Below, in pieces: positions 33,368-57,639 of a stretch of DNA of 62,948 nucleotides; position 1 is the stretch's first letter; each line of letters begins with the position of its first letter. The stretch comes from Rhodospirillales bacterium BBD 1991-14 (lineage in GTDB: Bacteria; Pseudomonadota; Alphaproteobacteria; Kiloniellales; Kiloniellaceae): assembly GCA_001657395.1 (NCBI GenBank), contig LYSY01000013.1:1-62948 (forward strand). Reading direction: 5' to 3'. Position numbers and translations under genes: made by a program. The notes below the pieces were generated by a model. The model saw only the letters and a list, made by a program, of their open reading frames with translations. It searched no databases and was not told the DNA's origin.

Positions 33368-34312
33368 TCAGAGTTCTTGGGTTGCGGGCGGTTCCTGGGC
33401 GCCCTTCATCATCACTTCCGCGAGGACGCCGTAGGTCTTGGCCCAGGCTTTCTCGACATCGGACGTGAAGGCGTCCTGCAGGCCCTGCTTGAGGGTCCAG
33501 AGCAAGGCGTTGGCGACGCTCTCATAATGCTTCAGCTCGACGCCGTAGGCGTGGTGGCGCTGACCCATGACCTTGACCGCCGGCACAAGCTTGTCGAGCT
33601 TCTCCAGGCCCGCCACCGCCGTCTTCAGAACGGCCATCAGCTTGCGGCCCTGCTCGGCCATGTCGCCCTTGAACAGCGGCTTTGTGCTGGGGTCGATCTC
33701 GAAGAGGCGCTTGTAGAACAGGGCTGCGGCGTCCTCCGCGATCGGCTCCACCTTGGCGAAGGACTCCTGCACCATCTTGATTTCCGCCGCGCTCAAGGGG
33801 CCGCCGGCACCCGACGGCTCTTCCGCTTGCGCCTTGGAGGCCGCGGGCGCAGGGGGCGCCGTCTTCACCGGCGCCGGGGCTACGGCCGTTGGGGCAGGCG
33901 CCGGGGCCGGGGGAGGGGTCTCGACAGGGGCCGCCGCGGGCTGCGCGCGCCCGGCCCGGGAAACGGCCGCGTCGTTCAGGCTGGAGAGTTCGTTGATTCG
34001 TGTGGTCAGGCTCTCGACGATCTCGCCGATCTGGCTGGTGGCCTTGCTGGTCTGTCCGGCCAGCTGCTTCACCTCTCCGGCAACGACGGCAAAGCCCTTG
34101 CCGGCCTCGCCGGCGCGCGCCGCCTCGATCGTGGCGTTCAACGCCAGCAGGTTGGTCTGCTTGGCAATCGCCTCGATCTGTCCGGCCATGTTTGAAACGT
34201 TGGCGACTTCGCTGCGCAGCGCCTCGATCTGCTCGGCCATGCCCCCTTCCGATGCTTGGGTATTCTGGTCACCGGAGGGGCTGTGAGAGGGCGCGCTGGC
34301 GAACTGGGACAT
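33368..34312 (-). CDS. Soluble chemoreceptor signalling tip fused to a C-terminal globin
   Basis: The 314-residue protein joins two recognisable parts. Residues about 25-112 are the conserved MCP hairpin tip, including [20 protein letters not shown] and [15 protein letters not shown], which binds CheA/CheW. Residues 125-170 are a Pro/Ala linker. Residues 172-305 are a globin: Phe214 at CD1, Gln221 at E7 and His253 at F8 (in [14 protein letters not shown]), resembling flavohaemoglobin/neuroglobin-type single-domain globins. There is no transmembrane segment and the MCP helices are short. Known globin-coupled sensors such as HemAT have the opposite order. It is monocistronic and convergent with ATP12. 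A haem-based O2 or NO signal to a Che complex is inferred. Confidence 0.88.
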
Positions 34313-52467: not shown

Positions 52468-52620
52468 ATTGAGAGCCTTCGGGGAAGGCGCGGATCCGTT
52501 GTGCGACTGCGAAAGTGGCTCCACAGCGCGCGCCAGTTTTGCTAGACAGTCGCCTCTAGCTGGGCCTCTAGCCGTACAATCGCCTGCCGCCGCACCTTAC
52601 AGAAGGGTTTGCAGTGTTTC

Positions 52621-53514
52621 ATGAATGACGGGTCTTCGGACAGGTCTGACAAGGACGGCCAGACTCTTGCCGTTCTCTTCGCCGATATCGACGGCAGCAC
52701 CAAGCTGTACGAGGTTTACGGCGATGAAACCGCACATCGCCTGACTGCGGAGTGTCTGACCATACTCGATGCCCAGGCCGGCATTGCGGGCGGGCGCGTG
52801 GTGAAGACCTCCGGTGATGGCGTCATGTGCGTCTTCGCAACCCCCGACGAAGCCTTTCGCGCCGCCACGCTGATGCGCGATGCCCACAAGCACGGACAGG
52901 TCTCGATTCATGCCGGCTTCCATTTCGGTCCGGTCATCGAGGACTCCGGCGACTTCTATGGCGACACGGTCAACGTGGCCGCCCGCGTGACCGATCTCGC
53001 CAAGGCCGGAGAGATCCTGGTGACCGAAGATACCGTGGTCCGTCTCTCCCCGCCGTTCCGCAGTTCCACCCGTTGGATCGACAAGGCCGCCATGAAGGGC
53101 AAGAAGGAGCCTGTGGCGATCTACGAAGTGGTGACCGAAGACGAAAACGCCACGGTGATCCGCGGACCGCTGCTGGCCGCGGAAGGCGACAAACTGCGGC
53201 TCGATCTCGCCTACCGCGGTGAGACCTTCAGCCTGGAGGAGCCCATGGCGGAGTTCGTCGTCGGGCGCCAGGATACCTGCGACCTGACGGTCGACAGCTC
53301 CTACGCCTCGCGCCGCCACGCCACGATCCAGGCCGTGCGCGGCAAGGTGTTCCTGAAGGATCACAGCACCAACGGCACCTATGTGCGCAGCGAGAACGGC
53401 GACATTGCCTATGTGAAGCGTGAGATGGTGCAGCTCGTTGGGCGCGGAGGCATCTTCCTGGGGCGGGAGCCGGACCTCGCCGGCGACGATGAGATCCGCT
53501 TCAACCTGCCTTGA
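52621..53514 (+). CDS. Class III adenylate/guanylate cyclase fused to an FHA domain
   Basis: ATG 52621 gives 297 residues. The cyclase domain (about 12-170) has metal Asp22 in LFADIDGSTKLYEVYG and Asp66 in VKTSGDGVMCVF, with Asp115, Asn118 and Arg122 in GDTVNVAARV for substrate and transition state. It therefore looks active. A C-terminal FHA domain (about 195-290) has Gly215-Arg216, Ser230, Arg231/His233 and Asn251-Gly252, the phosphothreonine-binding set. Soluble, no membrane segment. The PP2C and kinase genes downstream suggest that the FHA reads kinase products and that cAMP output follows (inference). Confidence 0.92.
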   Translation: MNDGSSDRSDKDGQTLAVLFADIDGSTKLYEVYGDETAHRLTAECLTILDAQAGIAGGRVVKTSGDGVMCVFATPDEAFRAATLMRDAHKHGQVSIHAGFHFGPVIEDSGDFYGDTVNVAARVTDLAKAGEILVTEDTVVRLSPPFRSSTRWIDKAAMKGKKEPVAIYEVVTEDENATVIRGPLLAAEGDKLRLDLAYRGETFSLEEPMAEFVVGRQDTCDLTVDSSYASRRHATIQAVRGKVFLKDHSTNGTYVRSENGDIAYVKREMVQLVGRGGIFLGREPDLAGDDEIRFNLP

Positions 53515-53774
53515 TCCCTTCGTATCCGGCCTGTCTCGACTCCGGCGTGAAGCCTTTTCCGCAGACGATGGCGGCCCGCCGCCGAGCGGCGGCTTTACCG
53601 CGACAAGTGGCTGTTCCATAATCGCTTTGGGAGAGACAGGGGGGTGGAACTTGTCACTGCGGGCGCTGCCGTTGAGCGAGACCGGCCGGTCTGGTGCCTT
53701 TGTGCCGCCGGGCCGCGGGCCCCGGCTTTGCGTGCCGGGAAACGCGACGGACCGCTTGGACAGGCCATGGGACG

Positions 53775-54569
53775 ATGTCTCAAGACAGTAGAACTGGCGA
53801 AATGATGGAGTCTGAGGTCAGCGGGACGGTGGCGGCGACTCTGGGGCACCAGAGCGATGTGGGCCGCGTCCGCCGCCACAATGAAGACAGTTACGCCCTG
53901 CGGGAAGACCTGGGTCTCTGGGTGGTTGCCGACGGCATGGGCGGTGCCGCCGCGGGCGACAAGGCCAGTTCGATCGTCGTCGATGTCGTGGCGCGCTCCG
54001 TCGAGCGCGGCTCTGCCTTGGAAGACGCCATGGCCGAGGCCAACCGCTCGATCCTGGAGGCGGTCGAGGCGGGTGAGGGCAAACGGGGTATGGGCTCGAC
54101 AGTGGTGGCGGCGCGGATTTCCGGCAGCGAGTACTGCGTCGTATGGGTTGGCGACGCCAGGGCCTATCTTTGGGGCGAAGGTCTGCAGCGGCTGTCGCAC
54201 GATCATTCGCGGGTCCAGGAACTGGTCGACGCCGGCCTCATCACGGAGCAGGAAGCGCGCAGTCATCCGCACCGCAGCGTGATCACGAGGGTGCTGGGCG
54301 GACCGGACGGCACTGCCGCGGCGCCCGACCAGGTGACCGGCTCGCTGCGTCCGGGCGAGAGCATTCTGCTGTGCAGCGACGGACTGACCTCGGAAGTGGA
54401 TGACCACGACATAGCCCGGGTGCTGTCGCGTGAACTGGCGGACGGCAAGTCCGCTGAAGCCGCCGGGCAGCGCGCTGTGGACCGCCTGGTGGCCATGGCC
54501 TTGGATCATGGCGGGAACGACAACGTCACGGTGGTGCTGATCGGTGTGCCCGCGGGGGCCGCGGCATGA
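53775..54569 (+). CDS. PP2C-type protein Ser/Thr phosphatase
   Basis: ATG 53775 gives 264 residues; ATG 53802 is an alternative. The PPM metal-binding motifs are all seen: RRHNEDSYAL, VVADGMGGAAAGDKAS, SILLCSDGLTSEVDD and GGNDNVTVVLIG. It is soluble and should remove phosphate from Thr or Ser on the neighbouring kinase and its substrates. The 260-bp spacer before it holds a short GC hairpin (53578-53593) but no gene. It is followed 76 bp later by the kinase. Confidence 0.93.
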   Translation: MSQDSRTGEMMESEVSGTVAATLGHQSDVGRVRRHNEDSYALREDLGLWVVADGMGGAAAGDKASSIVVDVVARSVERGSALEDAMAEANRSILEAVEAGEGKRGMGSTVVAARISGSEYCVVWVGDARAYLWGEGLQRLSHDHSRVQELVDAGLITEQEARSHPHRSVITRVLGGPDGTAAAPDQVTGSLRPGESILLCSDGLTSEVDDHDIARVLSRELADGKSAEAAGQRAVDRLVAMALDHGGNDNVTVVLIGVPAGAAA

Positions 54570-54645
54570 GGTGTTTTGGGTTGAGAGCCTTGGGGTGGAA
54601 AGATATGTCCGGCGGTAGATCAGCCTGGTCAAGAGGACGGTGCCG

Positions 54646-57639
54646 ATGAGCGACGATCCACGGGGTGGCGGATCGCAGGGCGGCGGATCGCAGGGCGGCG
54701 GATCCCTGGGTGGAGGATCCGCGGGGCGCGGCGATTCCGGCATGTCCGGTATCTTCGACGTCGGCACCCTGATCAGCTACACCTATCGGGTTGAGGCTCT
54801 GCTGGCGCGCGGCGGCATGGGCGAGGTGTATCGCACCACGCACACGGAGATCGGCACCCAGCACGCGATCAAGATCGTGCGGCCGGATCTGGCCAACAAC
54901 GAGAAGATCATGGAGCTCTTCCGGCGCGAGGCGTCGGTTCTGCGCACCGTGCGCGATGATGCCATCGTCGGTTACGACGGCGTGCTGCGCGACGAAGAAG
55001 GCCGGGTCTACCTGGTCATGGAATTCGTCGACGGCCCCTCGCTCACCGAATACCTGAATGACCGGATCCTGTCGCCGGAGGAAGTGCGCGCGCTTCGCGA
55101 CAGGTTGGCCCACGGCCTGGCGGCGGCTCACGACAAGGGCGTCATTCATCGCGACATGTCGCCGGACAACATCATCCTCGGCCAAGGCAAGCTCTCTCAG
55201 GCCAAGATCATCGACTTCGGCATCGCCAAGCTGGCGGATTCCTCGGCAACCACGATCATCGGCGACGATTTTGCCGGCCGCTATGCCTATGCCTCGCCGG
55301 AGCAGATCGGTCTCTACGGCGGCCAGGTCGACGCCCGCTCCGACATCTACAGCCTGGGTCTGGTGCTGGCGACCGCGGGCACCGGGCGGGCGCTGAACAT
55401 GGGCGAGATCAACGAGTCCCTGGTCTCGGTGATCGAGGCGCGCAAGCAGATACCGGACTTCACGTCGGTTCCGGAAATCCTGCGCAACGAACTGGGCGCG
55501 ATGCTGCAGCCGGATCCGGCCGACCGGCCGCTGAGCATGCGCGACGTCATCGGCCTGGAGAAGCACCTGGCAGCCCAGGAGGCTGCCGAAGATGCCGCCG
55601 CGACTCCCGCCGCACCGCCGCAACCTTCGGCGGCACCGCTGGCCGCCGAGCCGCCTGTGCGCTCCGCCTCCACAGCTTCCGGGCGCCCTTGGCTTTGGCC
55701 GGCGCTGGCGACCGGCGTCGTTCTGGCGGCCGGCGGCGGTTACTTCGCCTGGCAGTCGACGCAACAGCCGGACCAGCGGCCGGTTACGGCCGAGATCGAC
55801 AGCGTTGCGCCGGCGGCGGGTGAAGATGGTGCCGAAGCTGTGGCCGACGCTCCGCCAAGCCCACAGGCGCCGGAGCAGGCTGCGCAGGCCCCTGAGACCG
55901 CACAGGCCCCTGAGACCGCACAGGCCCCTGAGGCCGCACAGGCCCAGGAGACTACACAGGCCCAGGAGACCGGACAGCCGCCGGAGACTGCGCCCACGCC
56001 GGAGAGCGCCGCTGAAACTACGCCCGAGGCTGTGGAGGAGGCGCCGGCTGCCCAGACCGAAGAGCCGGCCGCACCCGCCGTGGCTGTGAGCGAACCCGTC
56101 CCTGCGCCGGCCCCCGCTGCGGAAGTTCCTGAGGAAGTTGCTGCGGAAGGTAGGGAGGCCGAACCGGCGGTGGAGGCGGAGCCGGCTGTCCCGGAAGACG
56201 ATCCTTCGGAGATCGCAGCGGCCCCGGCTGGCGACAGCGCGGCTGACGAGAGCCCGGCAGACGAGAGTCCGCCTGAGCAGAGTCCGCCTGAGCAGAGTCC
56301 GGTGGAGGAGGCCTCTGGGCCCGCCGCGCAAACACCGCTGCCGGCGGGTGCCGCGGACCCTGCTGAAGAGGCTGCGGGTGTGTCCGAAGCCGAAACGGCC
56401 GAGGCCGCCGCTGAGGCGCCGGATACGGCAGCACCTGAGCCAGCAGCACCTGAGCCGACCGCCGCTGACGCTCAGGACCCTGCCGAGCGTACGCCTGCCG
56501 CGGAGCCTGCTGCTGACGCCCAGACGGCGCGCGATGGCGCAGATGCCCCGGAAGAACCGGCCCAGGCGGCGGTGGAGACTGCGCCCTCACCGGAAGCGTC
56601 CTCAACTGTGGAAGCCGCTTCCGAAGCCGCGTCTGATGCAACCGTCTCAGCCGATGGAGGGGACGGGGTTTCAACCGCCGGAGACTCGCCGGCTGACCAG
56701 GTGGCGGCACTGCCCGAACCCGATGCGCAGGAGGCCGATATCCCGGAGGCCGCGCCGGAGCCCACGGAGCCGGAACCCTCGGCCGTGGAGCTGCGCCAAC
56801 TCGCCCTGCAGGCGGCCGAAGCGGAGCTGAGTCGGGACGAGAAGCGCGAGATCCAGCGCGATCTCCAGGCTCTGGGCCACTACCGGGGCGGCATCGACGG
56901 CAGCTTCGGGCCGGGCACCCGTGCCGGGATCGAACGCTATCAGCAGGTCGCGGGCCTTGACGTCACCGGTTACCTGACCGACGCGGAACGCCAGGACTTG
57001 GCCGATGAGGCCGCAGGTCCGCGTGCCGAGGCCGAGCGGCTGGCTGCCGAACGGGCGGCTGCGGAGGCGGAGGCGCGCGCGGCTGAGGAGCAGCGCTTGG
57101 CAGCGGAGCGCCAGGCGGCCCAGGCCGCAGCGGCGCGGGCCCGTGCGGTCGCGCAGGAGCGGACTCCTGCCGCGCCGGCCGCCGAGCAGCAGGCATCGCT
57201 TCCCGGGGAGAGTGAACTCGACCGCTTGCGGCGCATTGCCGAGGGTGGCGATCCGCTGGCCCAGGCAAGCCTTGGCCTGCGCTACTACCGGGGCCAGGGC
57301 GTGCGCCGCGACCTCGAGGAGGCGGTGCGCTGGACCGAGATGGCCGCACAACAGGGCGAGGCGCGGGCCCAGTCGAACCTCGGCTTCTACTACATGAACG
57401 GTGAAGGGGTGCAGCGCGATCCGGCCCAGGCCGCCCGGTGGTGGCGGGAGGCGGCGGCGCAGGGGCTGCAGCAGGCCCAATTCAATCTCGGCCTGCTCTA
57501 CGAAACCGGGCGGGGCGTTACGGCCGATCCGCAGGAGGCGGCAAAGTGGTATCGCCTGGCCATCGCACAGGGGGACCGTCAGGCCAAGAGCAGGCTCGAC
57601 AACCTGGTACGCCGCGGTCTGGTGAGTCCGGAGAACTGA
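54646..57639 (+). CDS. Membrane Ser/Thr protein kinase with peptidoglycan-binding and Sel1-repeat region
   Basis: ATG 54646, 9 bases after AAGAGG, gives 997 residues. After a Gly/Ser-rich start the cytoplasmic kinase (about 45-290) has GGMGEVY, Lys76, HRDMSPDN with Asp170, IDFGIAK with Asp190 and ASPEQ. A single transmembrane helix is at about 349-370. The outer part is a long Pro/Glu/Ala-rich linker with tandem 6-residue repeats (to about 720). A PG_binding_1-like domain (729-786, LQALGHYRGGIDGSFGPGTR), a coiled coil (787-850) and three Sel1 repeats (859-997) follow. It could sense the cell wall and phosphorylate cytoplasmic targets; the partner phosphatase and FHA cyclase are upstream. Confidence 0.9.
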   Translation: MSDDPRGGGSQGGGSQGGGSLGGGSAGRGDSGMSGIFDVGTLISYTYRVEALLARGGMGEVYRTTHTEIGTQHAIKIVRPDLANNEKIMELFRREASVLRTVRDDAIVGYDGVLRDEEGRVYLVMEFVDGPSLTEYLNDRILSPEEVRALRDRLAHGLAAAHDKGVIHRDMSPDNIILGQGKLSQAKIIDFGIAKLADSSATTIIGDDFAGRYAYASPEQIGLYGGQVDARSDIYSLGLVLATAGTGRALNMGEINESLVSVIEARKQIPDFTSVPEILRNELGAMLQPDPADRPLSMRDVIGLEKHLAAQEAAEDAAATPAAPPQPSAAPLAAEPPVRSASTASGRPWLWPALATGVVLAAGGGYFAWQSTQQPDQRPVTAEIDSVAPAAGEDGAEAVADAPPSPQAPEQAAQAPETAQAPETAQAPEAAQAQETTQAQETGQPPETAPTPESAAETTPEAVEEAPAAQTEEPAAPAVAVSEPVPAPAPAAEVPEEVAAEGREAEPAVEAEPAVPEDDPSEIAAAPAGDSAADESPADESPPEQSPPEQSPVEEASGPAAQTPLPAGAADPAEEAAGVSEAETAEAAAEAPDTAAPEPAAPEPTAADAQDPAERTPAAEPAADAQTARDGADAPEEPAQAAVETAPSPEASSTVEAASEAASDATVSADGGDGVSTAGDSPADQVAALPEPDAQEADIPEAAPEPTEPEPSAVELRQLALQAAEAELSRDEKREIQRDLQALGHYRGGIDGSFGPGTRAGIERYQQVAGLDVTGYLTDAERQDLADEAAGPRAEAERLAAERAAAEAEARAAEEQRLAAERQAAQAAAARARAVAQERTPAAPAAEQQASLPGESELDRLRRIAEGGDPLAQASLGLRYYRGQGVRRDLEEAVRWTEMAAQQGEARAQSNLGFYYMNGEGVQRDPAQAARWWREAAAQGLQQAQFNLGLLYETGRGVTADPQEAAKWYRLAIAQGDRQAKSRLDNLVRRGLVSPEN
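55885..55974 (+). repeat. Five 18-bp tandem repeats inside the kinase gene
   Basis: Five 18-bp units of the form CAGGCCCCTGAGACCGCA, the first two identical and the later three diverged, encode repeated QAPETA-like hexapeptides in the extracytoplasmic linker. Unit length is a multiple of three, so copy-number change would alter linker length and keep the frame. Confidence 0.85.

Follow-up and report, generated by a model that had tools for sequence, protein, structure and literature searches.

A soluble chemoreceptor tip joined to a Hell's Gate type globin in Pelagibius and other Alphaproteobacteria

How could a haem globin that stands behind a chemoreceptor tip, and not ahead of it, feed into chemotaxis? 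The question is raised by one gene in the window, the whole stretch of 62,948 nucleotides analysed here, whose host genome is assigned to Pelagibius (Alphaproteobacteria) by its relatives and by same-genus genomes. The open reading frame runs from 34312 to 33368 on the reverse strand (-), encodes 314 residues and contains no internal stop. An earlier note on this DNA had described the product as a chemoreceptor fragment with the MCP tip first and the globin second, connected by a Pro/Ala linker and lacking a membrane segment. The layout in this description holds, whereas the label of fragment does not.

Architecture of the mini-tip/globin protein

The protein is composed of two Pfam domains. 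MCPsignal (PF00015) is found at residues 24-112 (E 6.1e-27) and corresponds only to positions 20-108 of the 172-position profile. The Globin domain (PF00042) follows at residues 199-301 (E 5.7e-15) and scores 56.3 bits against a cut-off of 22. An AlphaFold2 model of the 314-residue protein, built from 35 aligned sequences (mean pLDDT 83, pTM 0.50), contains two helices (residues 25-66 and 68-122), a stretch of low confidence at about 123-174 and a globin at 175-305. The 52-residue linker harbors 15 Pro and 17 Ala and is probably disordered, judging from the model. No membrane segment was found in the 314-residue protein, the top 19-residue Kyte-Doolittle mean being 1.0. Pfam, AlphaFold2 and hydropathy are thus in line with the domain order of the earlier note and with its assignment of the C-terminal part as a globin.

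Table 1 Features of the mini-tip/globin gene in window coordinates
Feature	Position	Strand	Basis
Whole gene, 314 aa mini-tip/globin protein	33368..34312	-	ORF calling
MCP signalling hairpin tip, residues 25-122	33947..34240	-	PF00015; PDB matches 4jpb, 3ur1, 1qu7, 6s1k; AlphaFold2 helices
Lys51, Tsr 373 equivalent	34160..34162	-	Lys/Arg in 32/39 mini-tips; Glu in 13/13 own-genome conventional receptors
Pro/Ala linker, residues 123-174, weakly constrained	33791..33946	-	Low model confidence
F-lineage (Hell's Gate type) globin, residues 175-305	33398..33790	-	PF00042; phmmer 3wfw; Foldseek 3s1i
Tyr200, B10	33713..33715	-	Invariant: 27/27 tip-coupled, 59/59 uncoupled aligned globins
Phe214, CD1	33671..33673	-	Invariant: 27/27 tip-coupled, 59/59 uncoupled
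Gln221, E7 distal residue	33650..33652	-	Invariant: 27/27 tip-coupled, 59/59 uncoupled
Lys224, E10, counterpart of HGbRL Lys52	33641..33643	-	Lys in 26/27 tip-coupled, 54/59 uncoupled
His253, F8 proximal haem ligand	33554..33556	-	Invariant: 27/27 tip-coupled, 59/59 uncoupled

With an offset of 322 to full-length E. coli Tsr (6s1k, 551 residues), the hairpin 25-122 corresponds to Tsr 347-444. Both the AlphaFold2 model and the PDB alignment confine it to this range, and the methylation helices are absent; the methylation sites presumably lie outside Tsr 347-444. The closest PDB chains, 4jpb (90 residues, 8.3e-17) and 3ur1 (85 residues, 1.2e-16), are fragments of Tm14 from Thermotoga maritima, which share the short tip and carry Arg at the position of Lys51. 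They differ in that they were made for crystallography and have no globin. In excerpts of the source, 4jpb is a ternary complex of the CheA domains P4-P5, CheW and an unzipped TM14 fragment (PMC6746300). Its receptor piece has about 90 residues, so a tip this short is enough for binding to the kinase machinery in a crystal.

The contact surface of the tip is well conserved. N59, E63, R66, G71, G73, F74, V76, E80 and K82 are each conserved in 38 or more of the 39 aligned mini-tips and correspond to Tsr N381, E385, R388, G393, G395, F396, V398, E402 and R404 (the last as Lys). Among them, E402 and R404 form a salt bridge that stabilises the trimer, according to the same excerpts (PMC6746300). 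By sequence, the hairpin is the CheA/CheW-contacting tip of an MCP, and it may control CheA activity. The suggestion of the earlier note that so short a protein may not form a normal receptor trimer finds no support, as the tip retains its residues where trimer and kinase are contacted; Lys at 373 is a departure from the conventional receptors of the same genome. Compared with 53 longer receptors, the mini-tips differ most at Tsr 367, where Gln replaces Leu/Met. The next differing positions lie in the outer arms and include 431, 358 and 434 (Leu/Ile for Ala) as well as 427 and 357 (charged residues for Ala). Leu/Ile at 431, 358 and 434 suggests a tighter hairpin core, which a stand-alone module would need, whereas Gln at 367 points in the opposite direction.

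The globin possesses the globin fold together with Tyr B10, Phe CD1, Gln E7 and His F8, as expected for a single-domain globin of the F lineage. Its nearest solved relatives by sequence (phmmer) are HGbRL (3wfw, 1.4e-29) and Hell's Gate globin I (HGbI; 3s1i, 3.2e-25), followed by Vitreoscilla haemoglobin and neuroglobins, and the top fold match (Foldseek) is 3s1i with a TM score of 0.94 over the target. Phe214, Gln221 and His253 stand at the positions given in the earlier note, and its placement of the globin outside the sensor lineage agrees with Pfam, phmmer and Foldseek. These residues suggest that the domain binds haem and O2 and/or NO. With HGbI it shares the fold, Tyr B10, Gln E7, His F8 and Lys E10, but HGbI is a single-domain protein not tied to a chemoreceptor. 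In HGbRL of Methylacidiphilum infernorum, too, an F-type globin is joined to a domain of signalling type, and E10 is Lys (Lys52), a residue that excerpts of PMC4476040 describe as haem-binding. HGbRL differs in its Roadblock/LC7 partner, its N-terminal globin and its site-swapped dimer with fused E-F helices. The EF residues Gly235 and Pro244, lost in HGbRL, are retained here (in 21/27 and 26/27 of the tip-coupled globins, respectively), and the model, which is of the monomer only, has a helix break at residue 235. Because both residues are retained, a normal HGbI-like fold is likelier than a site-swapped dimer, and the HGbRL type was rejected as the default. Two other assignments were discarded. 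The sensor-lineage (protoglobin) profile PF11563 reaches 14.6 bits, below its cut-off of 25. A flavohaemoglobin would require a FAD/NAD reductase domain, which is absent: of the 399 positions of the flavohaemoprotein model, only 2-135 match, and the protein ends at residue 314. The same genome (G000) contains four further F-type globin genes, among them C19:355032-357112, C15:326947-327408 and C12:100432-100839, and a protoglobin gene at G000:C19:666147-666662, giving at least six globin genes with the mini-tip/globin gene included.

As in HemAT and other globin-coupled sensors (GCS), a haem-globin and an MCP signalling domain are found in one soluble protein. In the known proteins, an N-terminal globin of the sensor/protoglobin lineage is joined to a full MCP signalling domain, whereas the present protein has a C-terminal F-lineage globin, a tip only, a probably disordered linker and no methylation helices. 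Excerpts of PMC13401364 define GCS proteins by an N-terminal globin, and an older census likewise reports, in the portion available, that chimeric globins generally carry the globin N-terminally (PMC1457004). Measured against this definition, an MCP output is present in part, but the globin is not a protoglobin and is located at residues 175-305 of 314. The domain order is therefore reversed, as the earlier note had stated. Its view that the fusion arose separately from the HemAT type follows from the F-lineage globin, that is, from the PF00042 and PF11563 scores; the globin tree contains no sensor-lineage rows. A literature search, with subscription journals mostly outside it, returned no minimal chemoreceptor tip and no C-terminal globin with methyl-accepting chemotaxis, and "C-terminal globin domain" gave only nematode and annelid proteins by title. 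The proposal of an undescribed O2 or NO signalling design is reasonable to the extent that the literature searched, partly by title, held no such bacterial design; an earlier description elsewhere is possible.

Conservation and domain permutations

Six of the seven other Pelagibius genomes examined contain a syntenic orthologue with the same domain order; the seventh, G005 (91% complete), yielded none. The orthologues are located between an ATP12 gene and a carboxyl-transferase (propionyl-CoA carboxylase beta-like) gene, as identified from the flanks and by Pfam of both; at one orthologue locus (L120), an additional called ORF adjoins the gene. Six comparisons with the window's own copy gave pN/pS values of 0.02-0.44 in the tip and the globin and of 0.34-0.84 in the linker. 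Both domains are hence under purifying selection, as read from these ratios, and the linker is looser. Synteny within Pelagibius and selection on both domains mark the frame as a real gene, and a pseudogene or fragment was rejected. The upstream regions of the seven Pelagibius genomes have no FNR- or NnrR-like box in common, and inspection of the flanks by eye recognised no chemotaxis gene beside the gene in this genus. Elsewhere in the window, genes at 52609-57639 resemble, by eye, those of an FHA-domain adenylate cyclase, a phosphatase of PP2C type and a Ser/Thr kinase that bears Sel1-like repeats.

Run over the collected loci, our own profiles identified 23 distinct proteins in which a single frame encodes both mini-tip and globin. 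Their orders are tip-globin (15), tip-globin-globin (4), tip-tip-globin (1) and globin-tip (3, one of which, L187, has its tip cut short). In addition, 16 distinct stand-alone mini-tips and four globin/PAS/full-MCP receptors were found, and Pfam confirms representative members of the family. The earlier note contained neither the stand-alone mini-tips nor the relatives with tandem globins, tandem tips or the reverse arrangement. In an AlphaFold2 model of a globin-tip member (22 aligned sequences), the same parts follow each other the other way round, and the joint between them at 142-160 is of low confidence. The tip-first fusion occurs in 12 of the 61 genomes searched in the order, the own genome included. 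In an even draw across the class, 10 of 385 genomes carry the fusion (7 tip-first and 3 globin-first, own included), a lower bound since six candidates were scored per genome. In a phylum draw of 398 genomes, with five candidates scored per genome at E 1e-35, only the own match spans both domains, and none of the 19 new loci scanned from it has tip and globin in one frame.

Domain trees were built with a quick method and midpoint rooting from two short alignments; they contain many long rows, and the majority of their forks are weak. The domain sets omit tips below 80 residues, globins below 115 residues and identical sequences, and consequently the cut-short tip of L187 (G344). In the tip tree, the 39 mini-tips, whether fused or stand-alone and whichever the domain order, all fall into one group of 41 rows (SH-aLRT 94). 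This group, which also takes in two soluble receptors of about 470 residues (L005, L084), is separate from the remaining longer receptors; two changes on the tree are needed for the mini/longer label. In the globin tree, all 27 tip-coupled globins, the four globins of globin/PAS/MCP receptors and eight uncoupled globins form one group of 39 rows (SH-aLRT 95). The four receptors (L129, L137, L130, L060) thus have globins of the same group, but these are N-terminal and joined to PAS domains and a complete MCP domain of conventional type. The observed domain orders require some rearrangement.

Several loci add detail to this family. Frame L131:5995-6507 and frames in L132, L133 and L134 (same family, genus g4) encode stand-alone mini-tips with a Pro/Ala-rich tail and no globin; those of L131 and L133 have 171-172 residues as called, and the L131 gene adjoins pyruvate phosphate dikinase and glyS genes. 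The tail either predates the capture of a globin or remains after its loss. A 361-residue protein at L191:5327-6409 (G338) contains tandem mini-tips followed by one globin. A single-domain protoglobin (PF11563, E 1.6e-32) is encoded at L190:6473-6967 (G172), immediately downstream of a gene for a tip-globin protein. In G644 (L237:1555-1992 and 1857-2750), the gene of an F-type globin seems to lead straight into another gene, whose product is a soluble, receptor-like protein with an MCP tip that scores 62 bits to the mini-tip profile, a two-gene version of the globin and tip pair. G681, G729 and G745 contain long frames with an N-terminal globin, behind which PAS-like repeats are seen by eye in G681.

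Chemotaxis genes and the charge at Tsr position 373

The own genome encodes flagellins and has one che cluster with CheA, CheW, CheB and CheR. Its CheA contains Hpt, dimerisation, ATPase, CheW-like and receiver domains; in the frame L202:7521-10451, two CheW-like stretches and a C-terminal receiver are seen. The 15 MCP matches comprise 13 conventional receptors, one soluble receptor in a 476-residue frame and the mini-tip/globin protein. The soluble receptor (G000:C4:166130-166609; L005, L205), of 466-476 residues, groups with the mini-tips by its tip and has Lys at 373; its C-terminal part gives no Pfam match above the cut-off.

CheW domains were found in 27 of the 30 genomes examined, all of which carry mini-tips or chemoreceptor globins. 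The search found none in three fusion genomes, G011 (87% complete), G172 (98%) and G103 (97%). Missing CheA/CheW is weak evidence for another partner, because each of these genomes has at least three other MCPs and the che contig may be missing. A flagellin match is absent in G172 and G126, two of the nine genomes examined. In G145, a 100% complete genome, the fusion is one of just two MCP matches.

Position 373 of Tsr, which we take to be a trimer contact, is the site of a charge pattern. Lys/Arg is found there in only 2 of 53 longer receptors, both being the soluble relatives of about 470 residues. In 10 of the 12 genomes with a Lys/Arg mini-tip, the own one among them, Glu/Asp occupies the position in half or more of the conventional receptors sampled; the same is true of 0 of 5 genomes with a neutral mini-tip. 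The association (Fisher 0.003 by genome; 0.028 by family, 5/7 vs 0/5) was examined post hoc, with the threshold set afterwards and among related genomes, in an author-chosen sample of the own genome and part of the receptors of 16 further genomes. The sample contains 1-10 distinct receptor sequences per genome, with five genomes resting on one sequence, and one locus without a motif match (L320) was dropped. G328 and G126 are contrary to the pattern, and G040 has 3/6 with one Lys. The pattern hints at mixed trimers and is not proof of them.

Proposed mode of action and alternatives

We consider it about an even call that the mini-tip/globin protein is a non-methylated, soluble, tip-only chemoreceptor that anchors a haem gas sensor to the CheA/CheW baseplate and is coupled to it by proximity. 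The hairpin would supply only the receptor part that contacts CheA/CheW and the trimer, without methylation helices, HAMP or membrane parts, and would dock onto the baseplate, probably in mixed trimers with conventional receptors. The docked tip would carry the Hell's Gate type globin, with O2 and/or NO as ligand. The floppy linker and the swappable domain order argue that the signal is not sent along a continuous rigid helix of the HemAT kind, and the poor conservation of the linker makes mechanical coupling doubtful. Unlike in HemAT, the gas signal would bypass such a helix: ligand-dependent globin-globin or globin-tip contacts would more likely alter the number of tips that pair or are present in the array, and this change in pairing or occupancy may bias CheA without adaptation. 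More broadly, and only as a tentative possibility, alphaproteobacterial arrays may accept non-methylated plug-ins, the mini-tip entering mixed trimers through a charge-complementary contact at 373 and carrying one or two globins at either end by a floppy tether.

In the main rival, which we hold to be unlikely, the tip is only a tag for docking, and the globin buffers or scavenges O2/NO locally to protect the array or nearby sensors, with no signal passing through the tip. The flexible linker, the swappable order and the presence of one or two globins per tip fit such a cargo-and-tag design, and the Gln E7/Tyr B10 pocket resembles that of HGbI, for which excerpts report very high O2 affinity and low autoxidation (PMC4476040). 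Yet the contact residues of the tip are conserved as in receptors, more than a tag seems to need, and the same group of the globin tree includes the globins of full PAS-MCP receptors, proteins with the look of sensors. Conservation of the contact residues likewise bears on a competitive decoy or inhibitor, in which the short tip fills CheW/CheA sites without activating the kinase and the globin controls its availability. We rate this as rather improbable: the absence of methylation helices and the hairpin arms limited to Tsr 347-444 would suit it, but the contact residues are those of conventional receptors. The related idea of the earlier note, a haem-loaded cap or inhibitor on arrays, gains no support either way, and the intact contact residues together with the co-crystallised 90-residue tip favour docking.

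It is distinctly improbable that the mini-tip family addresses another, non-chemotactic kinase or regulator. This reading draws on a PAS protein and a hybrid histidine kinase that adjoin the fusion in G103, a HisKA protein in G126, a receiver-like protein (below the cut-off) in G252 and the three genomes in which CheW was not found. However, the kinase-type neighbours vary by genome and none is seen in Pelagibius, the CheA/CheW surface is conserved, and CheW is present in the great majority of the genomes examined (27/30). A neutral gene fusion or functionless degenerate receptor piece is hardly credible: the protein is short and lacks the input parts of a normal receptor, but seven Pelagibius genomes have it at the same locus, both domains are under purifying selection, and domain permutations recur.

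Our analysis suggests that the mini-tip with its globin is a variant within the globin-coupled chemoreceptors and a plug-in gas sensor for the chemosensory apparatus, of which we found no description. If the array-docked sensor is real, a chemoreceptor tip of about 90 residues alone would work in nature as a docking module, and haem gas sensing would have been wired into chemotaxis a second time, through a different globin lineage and with input that needs no long methylated coiled coil. If the broader plug-in reading is true, sensor input would have a second, adaptation-free route to the chemotaxis kinase. The family allows a test of whether receptors that lack adaptation helices can set the kinase activity of native arrays, and supplies a small natural part for this purpose.
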